Assembly (NCBI GenBank): GCA_009773355.1
Contig: WRPG01000001.1
Location: 1 to 64,000 of the forward strand
From: Limisphaerales bacterium
GTDB lineage: Bacteria > Verrucomicrobiota > Verrucomicrobiia > Limisphaerales > SXTU01
Length of the DNA: 64,000 bases
Direction: 5' to 3'
The translations under genes were made by a program, and so were the position numbers. Every line of letters starts with the position of its first letter. Position 1 is the stretch's first letter. Shown here piece by piece: positions 8,732 through 61,271 of this stretch. Below the pieces are notes generated by a model. That model was not told where the DNA came from. It made no database searches and saw nothing but the letters and a program-made list of their open reading frames with translations.

Positions 8732-10570
8732 ATGAACACGAAGCAAGACGCGACGCGGCGGCAACCCGGCTCGCTCCGGTGGCTGGTCACTGGGCTGCTT
8801 TGCACGGCGGGGCTGGTCCTTGGCGCTCCGGCGGCCCAGGCGGCCACGGTCACTCTCTGGGACACCGGCGCGTCGTTGACCGGCGTCGGCATGCCGCAAA
8901 GCCGGACCGGCTGGCAGGCCGTGCCCACCGAACTGTTCGCATTTGAAGCCAGCCCGGCCAAGGCGGCTTCCGATCCCGGTTACTGGGGCCGCGAATACTC
9001 CTTCAGGGGCGACGCGGTCGTGGAAAACCAAAGCTTGCTCGCCGTGTTTTCGAAGGCGCGCGGCGGCGTGGAGATTTATGCGAAGGAAGGCGCACCAGGA
9101 CGACCGATAGCCCAAGTGATGCCGCTCACTTCCAACCCCGGCCCGTCAGCGACCATGCGCCGCGTCGCCATCGTGCGCAACGCGGGCGACGAGGTGGTCC
9201 TCAGCGTCACGTATGCCGGCGCGGGCGAGTCCGCGACATTTGCCTTCAGCCGGAGCGAGATCGTGGAGCTGAAACCCACCGGCAAGCTCACGGGACTGCG
9301 CCTGCTCAGTCCCCTGCAATACGGCATCCTGCCCGGCTTCGTCGGCGACGACCTCATCTACAGCCCGGCGGCGTATCCCGAGGCGAAGTCCATCGCCCTT
9401 CCCTCGGACAATCTCTTCGTCGGCCTGCAACCCGGCGGCGACCGGATGCTGGTCGTGACCTGGCCCAAGGGCCGGCAGCAGGTGCAGCTCGGCCTTGGCG
9501 GCGCGCCGGACCAGCGCCGCATCGAGTCGCTGGAACTCCAAGGCGACGGGCAGAGCTTCTTCCTCGCCTCACTCGCGGCACCGGGCATCTGGCACCGCGA
9601 GGAACTGAAGGCCGGCTTTCTGGAGAAGGATGTGACGCTGGCGTGGAAACGGCCCTTCCCAGCGAAGTGGAAGACGCAGTTATCCGAGGCCGGCGTGAGG
9701 ACGAGCTACGCCTTCCGCCAGACCAAGGGCACCGTCTGGCGCGGCGTGCCCGGCTCGTATGACTTTCCGGCGTGGTTCGAGGGCGAGACGGCGATGTTGC
9801 GCCTCGGCAAGAAAGTCCCGCCCAAGGGCGACGCGCTCATCTACTTCCTCGAAGCCCGCGAGACGCCCACGTCGGTCGTGACTCCCGTGGACATCCTCAA
9901 GGCCACGCTCGGCCGGCCCATGAGCGAGGCGATCCTTGATCCCGCCGGCCGCCAGCTCCGCACGCACCACAAGCGCGGTGGCGACAGCGTCCACCGCGCC
10001 TGCACCTGCGGCTACACCGAGGCGATTGAGGCGGTCTTCAAGGCCGGCGAGGAGACCGGCAAGAAGCAGTTCATCGCGGACGCCGTTGACGACATGATTT
10101 ACTTCGTCCGCTGCCACCTTGAGCGCATCGCCGACTACCGGAGCTTCGCCGAGAACCTGGCGAAGCAGCTTCGTGCGAAGGCACTGGCCGCGCCGGAGCT
10201 GAAGGCCTACTTGGAAAACCTCGAACAGATCGTCCAGCAGATCCCGCAGGAGTGCGAGGTGCAGAAGGAGAACATGAAGTCGCTCGACCACGCCGCCGAC
10301 CTGGCGAAGCAGACTCTGGCCCTGACGCTCAAGTCCGACCCCGACAACCTGAAGACCTACGCCGCGCTGCTCAAGGCGTGGCGCGGCATGGGCGGCGCGC
10401 AGGATTACGTGCTGGCCAAGTGCCACACGGTCACGCGCCAGCTCTTCCAAGACGCCGGCTACGGCTGTGCCGAACTGCCCAAAGCCGTCGCCGTGGCCGA
10501 AGAGATCCGCGCCCGCTGCCGGCAGATTCTCCGCAACCCGGATGGCTACGAAATCTGGGCGGACTATTGA
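8732..10570 (+). CDS. Secreted protein of unknown function, 612 aa
   Basis: A signal peptide is visible (hydrophobic core LVTGLLCTAGLVLGAPA, then AQAA, about residues 18-39). The first two thirds are rich in beta-type sequence without a family I recognise. The last 200 residues are helical and charged and contain a CTCGY motif at about 427-431 and further cysteines. It heads a same-strand run with the FGE-like lipoprotein, MBOAT and SGNH genes (gaps of 36, 35 and 1 bp), so it may act on or be modified with the same exported polymer; that is inference. The 266-bp gap before it (8466-8731) holds no gene that I can support, only short inverted repeats around GGCAAGC/GCTTGCC. Confidence 0.7.
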   Translation: MNTKQDATRRQPGSLRWLVTGLLCTAGLVLGAPAAQAATVTLWDTGASLTGVGMPQSRTGWQAVPTELFAFEASPAKAASDPGYWGREYSFRGDAVVENQSLLAVFSKARGGVEIYAKEGAPGRPIAQVMPLTSNPGPSATMRRVAIVRNAGDEVVLSVTYAGAGESATFAFSRSEIVELKPTGKLTGLRLLSPLQYGILPGFVGDDLIYSPAAYPEAKSIALPSDNLFVGLQPGGDRMLVVTWPKGRQQVQLGLGGAPDQRRIESLELQGDGQSFFLASLAAPGIWHREELKAGFLEKDVTLAWKRPFPAKWKTQLSEAGVRTSYAFRQTKGTVWRGVPGSYDFPAWFEGETAMLRLGKKVPPKGDALIYFLEARETPTSVVTPVDILKATLGRPMSEAILDPAGRQLRTHHKRGGDSVHRACTCGYTEAIEAVFKAGEETGKKQFIADAVDDMIYFVRCHLERIADYRSFAENLAKQLRAKALAAPELKAYLENLEQIVQQIPQECEVQKENMKSLDHAADLAKQTLALTLKSDPDNLKTYAALLKAWRGMGGAQDYVLAKCHTVTRQLFQDAGYGCAELPKAVAVAEEIRARCRQILRNPDGYEIWADY

Positions 10571-16066: not shown

Positions 16067-18943
16067 GTGAACCGGCGTTCTATTCTTGTCCTCGGCACCG
16101 CGCTGCTGGTCGGCAGCACTTCGTTGTCTGCTAGTGACTGGCCGATGTGGCGTGCGAATCCGGGCCGCACCGCCGCAGTCGCGCCCGCGTTGCCAGAGAA
16201 GCTGGCGGTGCTGTGGACCCGCGAACTCGGCCCGCTCAAGCCCGCCTTCCGCGACGTGCGGCTACAGTTCGACAAAGGCTACGAACCCGTCGTGCTGGGC
16301 AAGCAACTCTTCGTCACCTCGTCACGCGACGACAGTGTGACCGCTTTCGCGACGGACACGGGTGCGGTGTTGTGGAAGGTTTTCGCCGACGGCCCGGTGC
16401 GCTTCGCACCGGTGGCGGGCGACGGGCGCGTCCTCTTTGGTTCGGATGATGGCATTCTCCGTTGCGTCTCCGCCGCCACTGGCGAGCTGCTCTGGCAAAA
16501 GCGCGCGGTGCCGAACAACCGCCAGCTCCTCGGCAATGGCCGGCTCATCTCCGTGTGGCCGATTCGCGGCGGGCCGGTGCTGCACGCGGGGCGCGTGTAT
16601 TTCGCCGCCGGGGTCTGGCCGCTGGAGGGGGTCTTCATCTACTGCCTCGACGCCGCGACGGGCCGCGAAATCTGGCTCAACGACAGCGCGAGTTACATCT
16701 ATGGCGTCCACCCGCATCAGGCCGAGGCCTTCGGCGGCATCGCACCGCAAGGCTACCTGCTCGTGGATGGTGCGGATCTCGTGGTGCCGTGCAGCTCCGC
16801 GTATCCCGCGCGCCTCGACCTCGCGACGGCGAAGCTGAAGGACTTCGCGCTGCCTGCGGCGGGCCGGCTGCCGGGCGGCTGGTTTGCATCCACGACCGAA
16901 GACAAGGAACTCCAGCGCAAGAAACGCCTCGGCCTGCTCTTCGACAACGAGGTCAACGCCGTCCGCCACGAGGACAAGCCACGCGCCGAAGGCGACACCG
17001 GCGTGCGCCGCACCTTCCGCGCGGGCGGCAAGGAGTTGAGCTTCGACGGCCCGTGGCCGGGCGTGACCGGAAAGGTCCACAGCGTGCTCGCGGCGGACGG
17101 CAAGGTCTTCGTCGTGACCGAGGAAGGCCGACTCACCGCGCTCGTCGCCGCGCCCGGTAGGGCCGACCTGCTGGTCGGCCGGCGTGAACCTTCGCCAACC
17201 GAAGCCGCGCAGCAGCGCGGCCCTACCATGCTTCAGGCGAAGCGACTGCTCGCCGCCGCCGGCACCCCGCGTGGCTACGCGCTAGTGCTCGGCCTTGGTG
17301 AACCCGGCCTGCTCGAATCTCTTGCGCAGCAAAGCCAGTTCAAGTTCCTCGCGCTCACGGAGGACGCCGCGAAGCTCACCGCCGCCCGCCAGCGCCTCGC
17401 TGCGGCCGGCCTTTACGGCGAGCGCATCGCACTACGACAAGTCGCGCCGAAGGATTCCGGCTTTCCGCCTTACTTCGCGAACTTCATCGCGCTCGCCTCC
17501 GGCGCGGCGCTGCCGGACCCGACGGCGTTGAAACACATTTACGGCTGGCTGCGGCCTTACGGTGGACGGCTCGTCGGGCCGGAGTCGCTCGCCCGCATCG
17601 CTGAGGTCGCGAAGCTGCCGCAGGCCAGCATCAAGGTCGCGGATGGCTTCGCGGTGATCACGCGCGAGGGCGCGCTCGAAGGCAGCACGAACTACAAAGG
17701 TGACTTCCAGACCAGCCCGGACGAGTTGGTGAAGGCTCCCTTCGGCGTGCTGTGGTTCGACGACACGCTCGGGCACTTCAAGCGCTCGCCGCAGCCCAAG
17801 TTCATTGATGGCGTGATGGTCAGCGTGGACAAGAACTGGCTCGACATCACGAACCGCAAGGGCAAGCAGGATTACAAGCTTCAGCCCGCCGTGTTCAGTG
17901 ACGTTTACACTGGCCGCGTGCTGGACGCCGCCGAGGCTCCCGCGTCGAGCCAGAGTTTTTCGCAAGTGGACCGCGAGAAGGTGCAGCAGAGCCAGTATCG
18001 CCCGCCGACGCAGAAGGACGACTGGAAGCCCGCCGCGCCCGTGGCCGGCACGCGCGTCAACCCGCTCACGGGCGACTACGAGCCGCGCGCGTTCCCGAAG
18101 AGCTACGGCTGCGACGGCGGCTTCGACTACGGCCACCTCTACACGATGCGCTCGGGCACGGCGGCGTTTTACGACAAGCGGCTCGACAGCGGCACCATCC
18201 ACATCAGCGGCCCGCGTTCGGGCTGCACAAGCAGCGTCATCCCGGCGAACGGCGTGCTGAACGTGCCTTACTTTTACGAGGGATGCAGTTGCAGTTACCC
18301 GCTGCCGATGGCGCTCTCGCTGGTGAGCCTGCCACCGACGTTCGAGCAATGGGCCGCGTGGGGCAGCGTCGCGACGAGCAATCTCGTGGGCAAAATCGAG
18401 CGCATCGGCATCAACTTCGGCGCGCCCGGCGACCGCCGCACAGACGACGGCACGTTGTGGCTCGCATATCCCGCCGTGGGCGGGCCATCGCCGAAAGTGG
18501 ACGTGCGCACCGAGCCGGCGGCACCGGAATACTTCTATCGGCACTCGGTCTGGATTGAAGGCGGCGAAGGCTGGCCTTGGGTCGGCGCGTCGGGCGTGAA
18601 GGGTTTGCAGCGCGTAACCGTGGTCGGGTTGAAGCCGGGTAATTACACCGTGCGCCTCGTGTTCACCGAGCCGGACGCGATGGCGAAGTTGGGCGGCAGG
18701 AAATTCGCTGCGCGTCTGCAAGACCAGACCGTCGCGGAAAGCCTTGATGTCTTCGCCGAAGCCGGTGGTGCGATGCACGTGGTGACGAAGCAGTTTGCCA
18801 AGGTCGCCGTGACCGACGGCACGCTCACCGTGCAACTCGACGCGCAGTCCGGCGCGACCTTGCTCAACGGCCTCGAAATCATCCGTGCCGGCCTGACGCT
18901 GGACCCGCTGCCCAACCCCGCCCGCGTGCCGGGGAGGATGTGA
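16067..18943 (+). CDS. Secreted PQQ-like beta-propeller protein with embedded methyltransferase-like domain, 958 aa
   Basis: GTG start at 16067, then a signal peptide (ILVLGTALLVGSTSLSA). Residues about 20-360 are PQQ-like blades with repeated patterns such as AFATDTGAVLWK and CLDAATGREIWL. Residues about 403-530 switch to a Rossmann-like pattern: ALVLGLGEPGLLESLA, an acidic residue after beta 2 (ALTEDAAK), RQRLAAAGLYGERI, then HIYGWLRPYGGRL, as in class I methyltransferases. Propeller sequence then resumes, followed by a C-terminal beta domain ending near TLLNGLEII. Residues 364-387 are encoded by a 72-bp palindromic element (17156-17227) just before the methyltransferase-like part. A paralog with the same layout follows 52 bp downstream. 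Whether it binds PQQ or SAM is unknown. Confidence 0.82.
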   Translation: MNRRSILVLGTALLVGSTSLSASDWPMWRANPGRTAAVAPALPEKLAVLWTRELGPLKPAFRDVRLQFDKGYEPVVLGKQLFVTSSRDDSVTAFATDTGAVLWKVFADGPVRFAPVAGDGRVLFGSDDGILRCVSAATGELLWQKRAVPNNRQLLGNGRLISVWPIRGGPVLHAGRVYFAAGVWPLEGVFIYCLDAATGREIWLNDSASYIYGVHPHQAEAFGGIAPQGYLLVDGADLVVPCSSAYPARLDLATAKLKDFALPAAGRLPGGWFASTTEDKELQRKKRLGLLFDNEVNAVRHEDKPRAEGDTGVRRTFRAGGKELSFDGPWPGVTGKVHSVLAADGKVFVVTEEGRLTALVAAPGRADLLVGRREPSPTEAAQQRGPTMLQAKRLLAAAGTPRGYALVLGLGEPGLLESLAQQSQFKFLALTEDAAKLTAARQRLAAAGLYGERIALRQVAPKDSGFPPYFANFIALASGAALPDPTALKHIYGWLRPYGGRLVGPESLARIAEVAKLPQASIKVADGFAVITREGALEGSTNYKGDFQTSPDELVKAPFGVLWFDDTLGHFKRSPQPKFIDGVMVSVDKNWLDITNRKGKQDYKLQPAVFSDVYTGRVLDAAEAPASSQSFSQVDREKVQQSQYRPPTQKDDWKPAAPVAGTRVNPLTGDYEPRAFPKSYGCDGGFDYGHLYTMRSGTAAFYDKRLDSGTIHISGPRSGCTSSVIPANGVLNVPYFYEGCSCSYPLPMALSLVSLPPTFEQWAAWGSVATSNLVGKIERIGINFGAPGDRRTDDGTLWLAYPAVGGPSPKVDVRTEPAAPEYFYRHSVWIEGGEGWPWVGASGVKGLQRVTVVGLKPGNYTVRLVFTEPDAMAKLGGRKFAARLQDQTVAESLDVFAEAGGAMHVVTKQFAKVAVTDGTLTVQLDAQSGATLLNGLEIIRAGLTLDPLPNPARVPGRM
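17156..17227. repeat. 72-bp palindromic element, family B copy 1 (in-frame)
   Basis: Outer ends GGTAGGGCCG and CGGCCCTACC are exact 10-bp reverse complements. The left arm contains the perfect hairpin GGCCGACC-TGCT-GGTCGGCC and the right arm GCCGCGC-AGCA-GCGCGGC. Length is exactly 24 codons. It encodes GRADLLVG...EAAQQRGPT inside the PQQ protein; copy 2 at 59443-59514 has the same length and reading frame. Confidence 0.88.
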
Positions 18944-35840: not shown

Positions 35841-35906
35841 GCGGGAGAAATGCGTAACAGGGCAGCCCGGGGGAGGCGAGCCGCCATGTAGGACAGCAGT
35901 GTGCCA

Positions 35907-35982
35907 GTAGCTCGACATTCCAATGTCGAGACCGGCTTGTCCCTCCGATGCCGTGGCACTCGACATTGGAATGTCGAGCTAC
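35907..35982. repeat. Palindromic element, family C copy 1
   Basis: 76 bp. Left arm GTAGCTCGACATTCC-AATGTCGAG and right arm CTCGACATTGG-AATGTCGAGCTAC are exact reverse complements, and each arm is a hairpin (CTCGACATT/AATGTCGAG). It sits in the divergent spacer between the DUF455 fusion gene and the GlcD-like gene. Copies 2 and 3 are at 38728 and 61203. Confidence 0.9.
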
Positions 35983-36066
35983 TTGGGCGGGAGCTGGACA
36001 ATGGAAGGACAGGCGGGACGCACCGTCCTACTTTGCAACGGCGCGCTGCCCCGCTACGCTCCGCCC

Positions 36067-38727: not shown

Positions 38728-38802
38728 GTAGCTCGACATTCCAATGTCGAGAACTGGCGGGGTGCCTGGGTTTCCGCACTCGACATTGGAATGTCGAGCT
38801 AC
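38728..38802. repeat. Palindromic element, family C copy 2
   Basis: 75 bp with the same arms as copy 1 (GTAGCTCGACATTCC...GGAATGTCGAGCTAC) and an unrelated spacer. It begins 5 bp after the stop of the 38240 gene and ends 75 bp before the leuB start, so it would be in the 5' leader if leuB has its own promoter. Confidence 0.9.
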
Positions 38803-59319: not shown

Positions 59320-61182
59320 ATGAACCCTCATGAGTCCGCGCCCGTTCCCCCCGCCACCGAAGCCACCGCGCTCCCGCTACCCAGCGATGCCGTGGTTTTC
59401 CCACCCACCCTGCCGCTCGTGATGAGCACGGAGGACAACCCCGGTAGGGCCGACCTGCTGGTTGGCCTTACGGCATCATTGGCAAACGAAGCCGCGCAGC
59501 AACGCGGCCCTACCGAAGCCGCAGAAACACCGCCGCCGCCACTGCCGCCCGTCACCCTCGAAGACCTCTGGCAGCGCATCCTCGCCCGCCTGCGCCGCCT
59601 GCCGCTCGCGCCCGCCGGGAAGTGGCTGCTCACCGTCAACCCGTTCTACCTCGCCAGTGCCGTGATGATGCTCTACGGCCTCTACCTCGTGAGCGTGGAC
59701 ACGCAGTTGCTCGGCCAGGAAACCTCCCAGCTCGCCTTCAACTTCAGCTCGCTCCAGCTCTACGAATGCCTGCTCGTCGTCACCGCCGTCGTGCTCGCGC
59801 GGCGGCGGATTTGGTATGACTCCACGCTGCTGGTCATCTTCGAGAACCTCTTCGCCGTCGTGCCGTTCATCCTCATCAGCCAGGCCAGCTTCATCAGCGC
59901 GGACTGGAAATGGGCCGCCTGCGCCGCCGCCGTCGCGCTGCCGCTCGCGCGCTTCACCATCCTCCATCGCCGACTGCCCGAGCTGAACCTCCCGCTCAAC
60001 GTCCTCGCGCTCGGCGCGTGCCTGTTGCTCGTCAACCTCGCCTTCCCGCTGCTCTACCGCGAAGTCATCGAGCACGACAACGACTGGTGGCTCGCCATCG
60101 CGCGGCAGTTCTGGCTCGGGTTGCTGCCGCTCCCGATGCTCGCGCTCAACTGCTTTCCGCCCCTCGCGAATCGCGGCGACGGCCCCGCCGGCTGGGCGCG
60201 CTGGGCCTTCATCTTCCCCGCGCTCTGGCTCGGCGCGACGGTCGCGCACCTGCACTCCATCGCCTACGTGGATGGGCAAAAATTCTCGCCGCACCTCGCC
60301 TCGCCGCTGCTGTGGGCCTTCGCGTGGACGCTGCGGAACAAGGTCACCGAAGTCATGCCCTTCCTCGCGCCCGCGTGGCGCAACCGCCTGCTCATCCTGC
60401 CGCTGCTCGCCACGCTGCCCGCGCTCGGGGCTAAGGACACCGCCGTCTTCCTCGTGCTCACGCTGCTGAACGGCGTCGTGCTCACGCGCCTTGCCCTGCG
60501 GCATCGCGACGAACCGTGGTTCGAGCCGCTGGCCGTTGCCTCCTCCTTCGCTCTCCTCGCTGGCCTGCCGGAGTTTCTGGGCAACGCCTACATTCCCGAG
60601 TTCAGCCGGGGCAAGGCCGTGCAACTCGCCCTCGCCGGCTTCGCACTCTTGCAGGCGACGCGTTCCGCGCGCATCAAGCACGGCTTGCTCGGCGCGCTGC
60701 TCGTCGGCCTCGGCACGCCCGTGCTGTTCACGCGGCTGGATTACGTCGGGCCGTTCGCGCTTCAAAACGCGCTGCTCTACCTGCTGCTCCACAGCTTCCG
60801 CTGGCGCGACACGCAGGTGTGCAGCGCGCACGCCATCCGCTTCGCCGTCGCGCTCATGTGGCTGCCGCACTCCGTCGTCTGGCTGCGCATTGCCGGGCCG
60901 GCGGCCGCGTCCACCATCGCGCTCGGTGCGCTGCTGGTGCTGGCGTTCAGCGTGCTCTTCCACCTGCTCGACAGCCCGCCGCCGAAGCTCGTCGTCGGCC
61001 TCGCGCTCGCGAACTTTGCCTTCGTCCCGGCCAACTGGACCTTCGAGGCGCTGCGCATCACGCCCATCGGCTACCTCGTCGTGCTCGTGAGCTTCCTGCT
61101 GTTCGGCGCCGGCACCGCGCTGGCCTTGCTGCGGGCAAGGTGGCTGTCACCGAAAGCGCCGCCTGACTTGGCGACCGGGTGA
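59320..61182 (+). CDS. Polytopic membrane protein of unknown function, 620 aa
   Basis: Good RBS (CGGAGG, 7 nt before ATG 59320). N-terminal 85 residues are Pro/Ala-rich and soluble; residues 42-65 are encoded by the 72-bp family B palindrome (59443-59514). The rest is a series of about 14 transmembrane helices (for example FYLASAVMMLYGLYLV, LLLVNLAFPLLY, LLGALLVGLGTPVLF). No transporter or transferase motif recognised. The 238-bp gap before it (59082-59319) contains an 8-bp inverted repeat AGTAGCCA/TGGCTACT (59120-59158), probably the end of the preceding gene's transcript. Confidence 0.78.
   Translation: MNPHESAPVPPATEATALPLPSDAVVFPPTLPLVMSTEDNPGRADLLVGLTASLANEAAQQRGPTEAAETPPPPLPPVTLEDLWQRILARLRRLPLAPAGKWLLTVNPFYLASAVMMLYGLYLVSVDTQLLGQETSQLAFNFSSLQLYECLLVVTAVVLARRRIWYDSTLLVIFENLFAVVPFILISQASFISADWKWAACAAAVALPLARFTILHRRLPELNLPLNVLALGACLLLVNLAFPLLYREVIEHDNDWWLAIARQFWLGLLPLPMLALNCFPPLANRGDGPAGWARWAFIFPALWLGATVAHLHSIAYVDGQKFSPHLASPLLWAFAWTLRNKVTEVMPFLAPAWRNRLLILPLLATLPALGAKDTAVFLVLTLLNGVVLTRLALRHRDEPWFEPLAVASSFALLAGLPEFLGNAYIPEFSRGKAVQLALAGFALLQATRSARIKHGLLGALLVGLGTPVLFTRLDYVGPFALQNALLYLLLHSFRWRDTQVCSAHAIRFAVALMWLPHSVVWLRIAGPAAASTIALGALLVLAFSVLFHLLDSPPPKLVVGLALANFAFVPANWTFEALRITPIGYLVVLVSFLLFGAGTALALLRARWLSPKAPPDLATG
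59443..59514. repeat. 72-bp palindromic element, family B copy 2 (in-frame)
   Basis: Same ends (GGTAGGGCCG...CGGCCCTACC), same 72-bp length and same reading frame as copy 1 at 17156. Encodes GRADLLVG...NEAAQQRGPT. The central 15 bp differ between copies while the flanks are almost identical. Confidence 0.9.
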
Positions 61183-61202: not shown

Positions 61203-61271
61203 GTAGCTCGACATTCCAATGTCGAGTCGGCGTCGCGACACGCAAACCTCGACATTGGAATGTCGAGCCAC
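61203..61271. repeat. Palindromic element, family C copy 3
   Basis: 69 bp. Left arm GTAGCTCGACATTCC... as in copies at 35907 and 38728; the right arm ends GAGCCAC instead of GAGCTAC. It lies in the 144-bp spacer upstream of the hydrolase gene at 61327. Confidence 0.88.

Follow-up and report, generated by a model that had tools for sequence, protein, structure and literature searches.

The usual account of REPs makes them extragenic elements. Di Nocera et al. 2013 (PMC3733652) likewise place most of them between genes, but list intragenic GTAG REPs as well, which among the GTAG-bearing species occur most often in Opitutus terrae; in their account these are frequent in repair genes, and may be neutral where they fall in a flexible linker or loop. 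Rickettsia palindromic elements (RPEs; Ogata et al. 2000, 2002, via PMC10969869), the first of which were about 150 bp long, lie in frame in unrelated protein genes and add a peptide to their products; according to PMC10969869, the conserved peptide falls in unrelated metabolic genes. Intragenic ERIC and MITE reading frames (Delihas 2007, via PMC10969869) are a further case in which a small mobile repeat gives codons to host genes. In REPtrons (a REPIN and its RAYT), a variable spacer separates the two inverted REP hairpins of the REPIN.

The element described here has features of each. Like the GTAG REPs of PMC3733652, it has a GTAG foot, a short-stem hairpin and inverted dimers, and contributes 20–30 codons within genes; the hosts reported there, likewise in a verrucomicrobium, include uvrA, DNA ligase, RNA helicase and tRNA synthetase genes. 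Unlike the REPs described in that paper, about 56% of the paired copies here are in genes. The family, from an uncultured subdivision-3-like genus, is probably new. As intragenic GTAG REPs are already known, what is added is this sequence family, the test of frame bias with a target control, the orthologue series and the synonymous-site test. With RPEs the element shares the in-frame palindrome in unrelated genes; it differs in its GTAG REP-dimer anatomy, of which the RPE accounts in PMC10969869 report none. The ERIC and MITE frames, as covered in PMC10969869, belong to other repeat families and have no REP hairpin. The arrangement is that of the REPINs of REPtrons, but neither the genome nor its congeners yielded a RAYT with this REP at its flanks. 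The element works like an RPE, but has the anatomy of a GTAG REP dimer (REPIN).

A REP dimer in two unrelated proteins

The original prediction placed two 72-bp copies of a palindrome at 17156–17227 and 59443–59514 of the window (the whole 64,000-nucleotide stretch that was analysed), and a check of the sequence found both there at that length. They are identical at 59 of 72 positions (left arm 24/25, right arm 26/27, middle 9/20). Both ends of the element open with GGTAGGG followed by a hairpin, the right one of which, read inward from the right, is GGCCGCGC-TGCT-GCGCGGC (Table 1). The 25-nt arms have 8- and 7-bp stems and 4-nt loops, which fits the 20–40-bp palindrome and 6–13-bp stem of GTAG REPs, and nearly all copies carry the GTAG foot as G-GTAG-GG at either end, with some GCAG variants. 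In the PQQ copy, arm 1 alone folds at −10.8 kcal/mol (z = −5.5 against shuffles) and arm 2 alone at −11.2 kcal/mol (z = −3.6). Neither arm was matched in dinucleotide-shuffled sequence, and a chance origin of the arms was rejected on that ground. Because the GTAG foot and hairpin occur twice, inverted, the element is a REP dimer (REPIN): two GTAG-tagged hairpins in inverted orientation with a variable spacer between them.

Table 1. Coordinates of the two element copies in the window and of their host genes
Feature	Position	Strand	Description
Host gene, PQQ/beta-propeller and malectin protein	16067..18943	+	958 aa; insert at aa 364-387
REP arm 1, PQQ gene	17156..17180	+	GGTAGG foot (contains GTAG) and hairpin GGCCGACC-TGCT-GGTCGGCC
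Variable middle, PQQ copy	17181..17200	.	9/20 identical to the copy in the membrane-protein gene
REP arm 2, PQQ gene, inverted	17201..17227	-	GGTAGGGCCGCGC-TGCT-GCGCGGC...
Host gene, predicted membrane protein	59320..61182	+	Insert at aa 42-65, counted from the ATG at 59320; Pro-rich N-terminal segment
REP arm 1, membrane-protein gene	59443..59467	+	
Variable middle, membrane-protein-gene copy	59468..59487	.	
REP arm 2, membrane-protein gene, inverted	59488..59514	-	

Pfam identified PQQ_2 (47–157) and malectin (853–931) domains in the first host protein, whose orthologues are 80–86% identical within the genus, and did not confirm the methyltransferase-like domain that had been read after the insert; no Pfam domain matched the membrane protein. 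As predicted, both copies are read in the same frame from codon 1 (GGT AGG GCC GAC CTG CTG ...), as GRADLLVGRREPSPTEAAQQRGPT and GRADLLVGLTASLANEAAQQRGPT. The chance of a shared frame, first put at one in three per strand, is corrected to about one half for sharing an open frame, because the TAG within GTAG closes one of the three frames, which leaves two open on the gene strand. The sole congeneric orthologue of the membrane protein lacks the insert. In the PQQ gene, several sisters carry an unrelated linker of similar length where the insert sits; the insertion was therefore not a simple addition, and came with loss or replacement of the linker.

Copies in the genome

The genome from which the window derives (6.16 Mb in 162 contigs, 95% complete) lies near the uncultured Verrucomicrobia subdivision 3, as judged from MutS relatives (best match 73% identical). 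Pattern searches gathered about 41 paired copies, 50–146 bp from end to end with a modal length of 72, besides single arms. The copies are dispersed over many contigs with their inverted arms as one unit, as is characteristic of GTAG REPs and REPINs. Copies were assigned to genes by scoring codon usage, with the window as training set, and by an open frame to either side, followed by Pfam; codon usage, homology and open frames are the basis of the gene calls. About 23 of the 41 pairs (about 56%) are inside genes and the remainder are intergenic, so that the usual, mostly extragenic distribution of GTAG REPs fails here. All of the in-gene pairs are open, and the pattern that would have spoken against the original prediction, with most copies between genes or in random frames with stop codons, is absent. 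Judged from frame scores, none of the copies was seen to disrupt an evidently coding gene.

Most of the in-gene hosts have Pfam domains. Paired copies occur in the PQQ protein, the membrane protein, YdjC, Ppx/GppA, two PSCyt2/PSD1 proteins, a DUF7133 protein, a DeaD-type RNA helicase, MutS (two inserts), RecG, a laminin-G protein, a DEAD/Suv3-like helicase, an exosortase, an FtsK/SpoIIIE protein, a thioredoxin-fold protein, RsmB, LigA, IleRS, two protein kinases, UvrA and DnaX; single arms occur in an ABC-F ATPase, MutL and an aminotransferase. The YdjC copy (L097:5001) is in an N-terminal extension whose codon usage is poor, and the true start may lie downstream of it. A 239-bp ‘pair’ in L106 was discarded as spurious. 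A query of family-typical arms with one spacer matched nothing in plasmid records, and a plasmid origin was rejected.

Six of the approximately 24 in-gene hosts in this genome act in replication or repair (MutS, MutL, UvrA, LigA, RecG and DnaX), an excess with P = 0.0003–0.002 against an assumed background of 4–6%. In relatives, the element is also found in UvrD-type helicases. The repair-gene excess repeats an earlier observation.

Several individual copies have further features. Two kinase paralogues (L127:5001-5060 and 9525-9584) each carry a 60-bp copy between the DFG and APE-like motifs, in the activation loop, and their spacers differ. In IleRS (L126:3535-6978), an MshEN domain (type II secretion ATPase N-terminal) occurs at aa 540–620, just after the REP insert, and the IleRS of congener G001 has a region similar to this stretch. 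Several intergenic copies (L092:5001-5072, L135:5001-5072 and L137:5001-5072) are bordered by GAACYT or ARGTTC, hinting at a longer palindromic unit or a target.

Orthologues and loop positions

Congeneric orthologues were aligned for 16 insertion sites, plus the two window sites. Whether orthologues lack the insert, a question raised with the original prediction, has a mixed answer: some are without it, some share it and some hold other sequence at the same loop. It is absent, for example, from orthologues of the membrane protein, Ppx, FtsK, RsmB and LigA (congeners G001, G006, G008, G009 and G010). It is shared at the same site in the exosortase (G002 and G007), helicase (G002), UvrA (G001), LigA (left arm, G007), MutL (G002 and G004), PQQ protein (G007) and MutS site 1 (G006). 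The insertion sites in MutS, LigA and UvrA are short loops or alignment gaps, with few or no residues, in solved homologues.

Some of the other sequences found at the same loops recur in unrelated genes: NAECGMRNAE in MutS and IleRS, RAGGLQPP in LigA and DnaX, and AGVPPAVEPG in MutL and the aminotransferase. These three peptides occur at L201, L202, L295, L297, L212, L213, L266, L275, L276 and L288, and their presence in loops of unrelated proteins of the genus suggests further in-frame repeat families. Apparent orthologues of one protein (L184:1501 and L317:1153 versus L114:5001) have REP inserts at different sites, depending on the species.

Conservation at synonymous sites

We consider it likely that the element is a selfish REPIN that is tolerated in surface loops when it is in a harmless open frame. 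The conservation of shared inserts was measured with a codon test on six orthologous pairs, with 120 codons on each side as flanks. Fourfold-degenerate sites are identical at 57/61 positions in the arms (93%) versus 514/765 in the flanks (67%; P = 4e-6), and are somewhat raised in the spacers (29/34; P = 0.025). Amino-acid identity is 83% in the arms versus 85% in the flanks. What is preserved or homogenised in the shared inserts is thus DNA rather than peptide, a pattern that could arise from constraint on the DNA, from homogenisation among copies, or from inserts being younger than their host genes.

DNA-level constraint would follow if the arms in genes were kept as DNA or RNA elements (hairpins with an effect on mRNA decay, supercoiling or repair), with the frame retained only to spare the protein. 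The arms exceed their flanks in fourfold-site conservation and fold stably, as this reading requires, but gene conversion or recent spread yields an identical fourfold-site pattern, and the element is degenerate in some orthologues (the exosortase and MutL, both in G008/G009); we regard it as unlikely. The synonymous conservation could also reflect gene conversion, transfer from one species to another or parallel insertions at a single site, in place of constraint.

Reading frame and length

The GGTAGGG end can be read in three ways, as GGT AGG (open), GTA GGG (open) or with a TAG stop. Among the in-gene pairs of the window's own genome, 18 are in the canonical frame (GGT AGG GCC GAC CTG...) and five have GTA GGG on the left (Ppx, RecG, MutS site 1, RsmB and IleRS). 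At the DNA level the canonical frame is GGT-AGG...CCT-ACC; it encodes GRADLPVG...AAQQRGPT, or GRDALPRV...ADQQVGPT in the opposite orientation. Over 11 genomes (this one and ten congeneric), with orthologues merged into independent gene clusters, 29 of 34 in-gene clusters are in the canonical frame and five are not. Length is also biased, and is divisible by three in 20/23 in-gene pairs versus 9/18 intergenic pairs (Fisher P = 0.016). Three of the five non-canonical clusters measure 1 mod 3 (79, 88 and 94), lengths that clean insertion fails to explain. The TAG frame cuts the protein short. The non-canonical open frame gives peptides that bear Cys or Trp (VGPTCW..., VGPRCC...), and this content is plausibly the reason why that frame is avoided.

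A choice of target could in principle set the frame before any selection, if insertion favoured pyrimidine^purine sites, which are common at codon boundaries of GC-rich genes (the RNY pattern). In-gene copies do have a pyrimidine before the element in 22/23 cases and a purine after it in 22/23, and intergenic copies likewise prefer A/G outward. We modelled this with the flank preferences of 30 intergenic pairs, which are under no frame constraint, applied to 25 genes of the window. Depending on the depth of flank considered, the model places 33–44% of insertions at codon boundaries and 51–59% in the canonical one of the two open frames, versus 85% observed; the probability of 29/34 canonical clusters is 8e-5 under single-base preferences and 1e-3 under six-base preferences, the most generous version. 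Next to intergenic copies, moreover, the favoured base is an outward-strand A (0.59; a T ahead of the element), and third codon positions here seldom hold A or T. With the intergenic-flank model too weak, target phase is largely refuted as the source of the frame, and we hold it to be distinctly improbable.

Because intergenic flank preferences predict so few canonical copies, the bias points to selection after insertion, presumably purifying, as its simplest cause. That the encoded peptide is itself useful, as a loop or binding module maintained by protein-sequence selection, is the least probable reading and was rejected: one peptide in one frame does recur in many proteins and several species, with six replication and repair proteins among the hosts, but the codon test indicated conservation at the DNA level, the reverse of the synonymous and amino-acid pattern that peptide selection predicts, with dN in most shared inserts about equal to or above that of the flanks and synonymous sites unusually conserved, and sister species either lack the insert or fill the loop with unrelated sequence. 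The original prediction of selection for an open frame, as with RPEs, is accordingly upheld in part. A palindrome dispersed in genes, with a genus-wide frame bias (29:5) beyond target preference, agrees with it; selection for the peptide itself is unsupported, as the arms are kept at synonymous sites and the peptide changes at a normal rate.

Proposed origin and mobiliser

If the element is a tolerated selfish REPIN, a non-autonomous mobile REP dimer would spread through the genome, presumably mobilised by a tyrosine (Y1/RAYT-type) transposase acting on single-stranded hairpins. Most copies landing in a gene would kill or impair the host. Survivors would sit in surface loops or linkers, have a length that is a multiple of three and be read as GGT AGG ... 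CCT ACC, a frame that lacks the TAG stop of the foot and avoids the Cys/Trp-bearing peptide. Host proteins would then carry a mostly harmless loop of 17–45 residues, which may persist through speciation with its arms staying near the family DNA sequence. We infer both the transposase-driven mobility and the neutrality of the peptide; as no transposase flanked by this REP was found, the former is deduced from the dispersal of the copies and the differences between orthologues.

The genome has three genes of the Y1-transposase type, one IS200-like and two that resemble REP-associated tyrosine transposases (L140, above the NCBIfam cut-off, and L141, below it). None of the three, and none of the Y1 genes of the congeners, is flanked by the GGTAGGG element in these incomplete assemblies. 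A RAYT can disappear from a genome or work in trans. The RAYT-like L141 is flanked on both sides by a different REP, GTAGCTCGACATTCCAATGTCGAG, and was rejected as the cognate RAYT for that reason. This second GTAG REP forms three dimers in the window (35906–35983, 38728–38802 and 61203–61271), and it and L141 are a plausible REP/transposase pair.

Implications

With over half of a REPIN family in genes and in one frame, and ten congeneric genomes as a natural comparison, the long-standing question of why palindromes survive inside proteins, and of why repair genes so frequently receive them, becomes testable. Insertion bias, peptide function and filtering after insertion differ in their predictions, the first two of which can already be tested from sequence alone.

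We raise, as a tentative possibility, that in this genus REPINs and several other dispersed repeat families continually supply core proteins, especially those of DNA repair, with in-frame loop insertions, so that the same loops (in MutS, LigA, IleRS, MutL and the exosortase) hold different repeats from species to species. If this were true, repeat insertion would be a main route of linker evolution in these proteins, possibly changing repair or the mutation rate.
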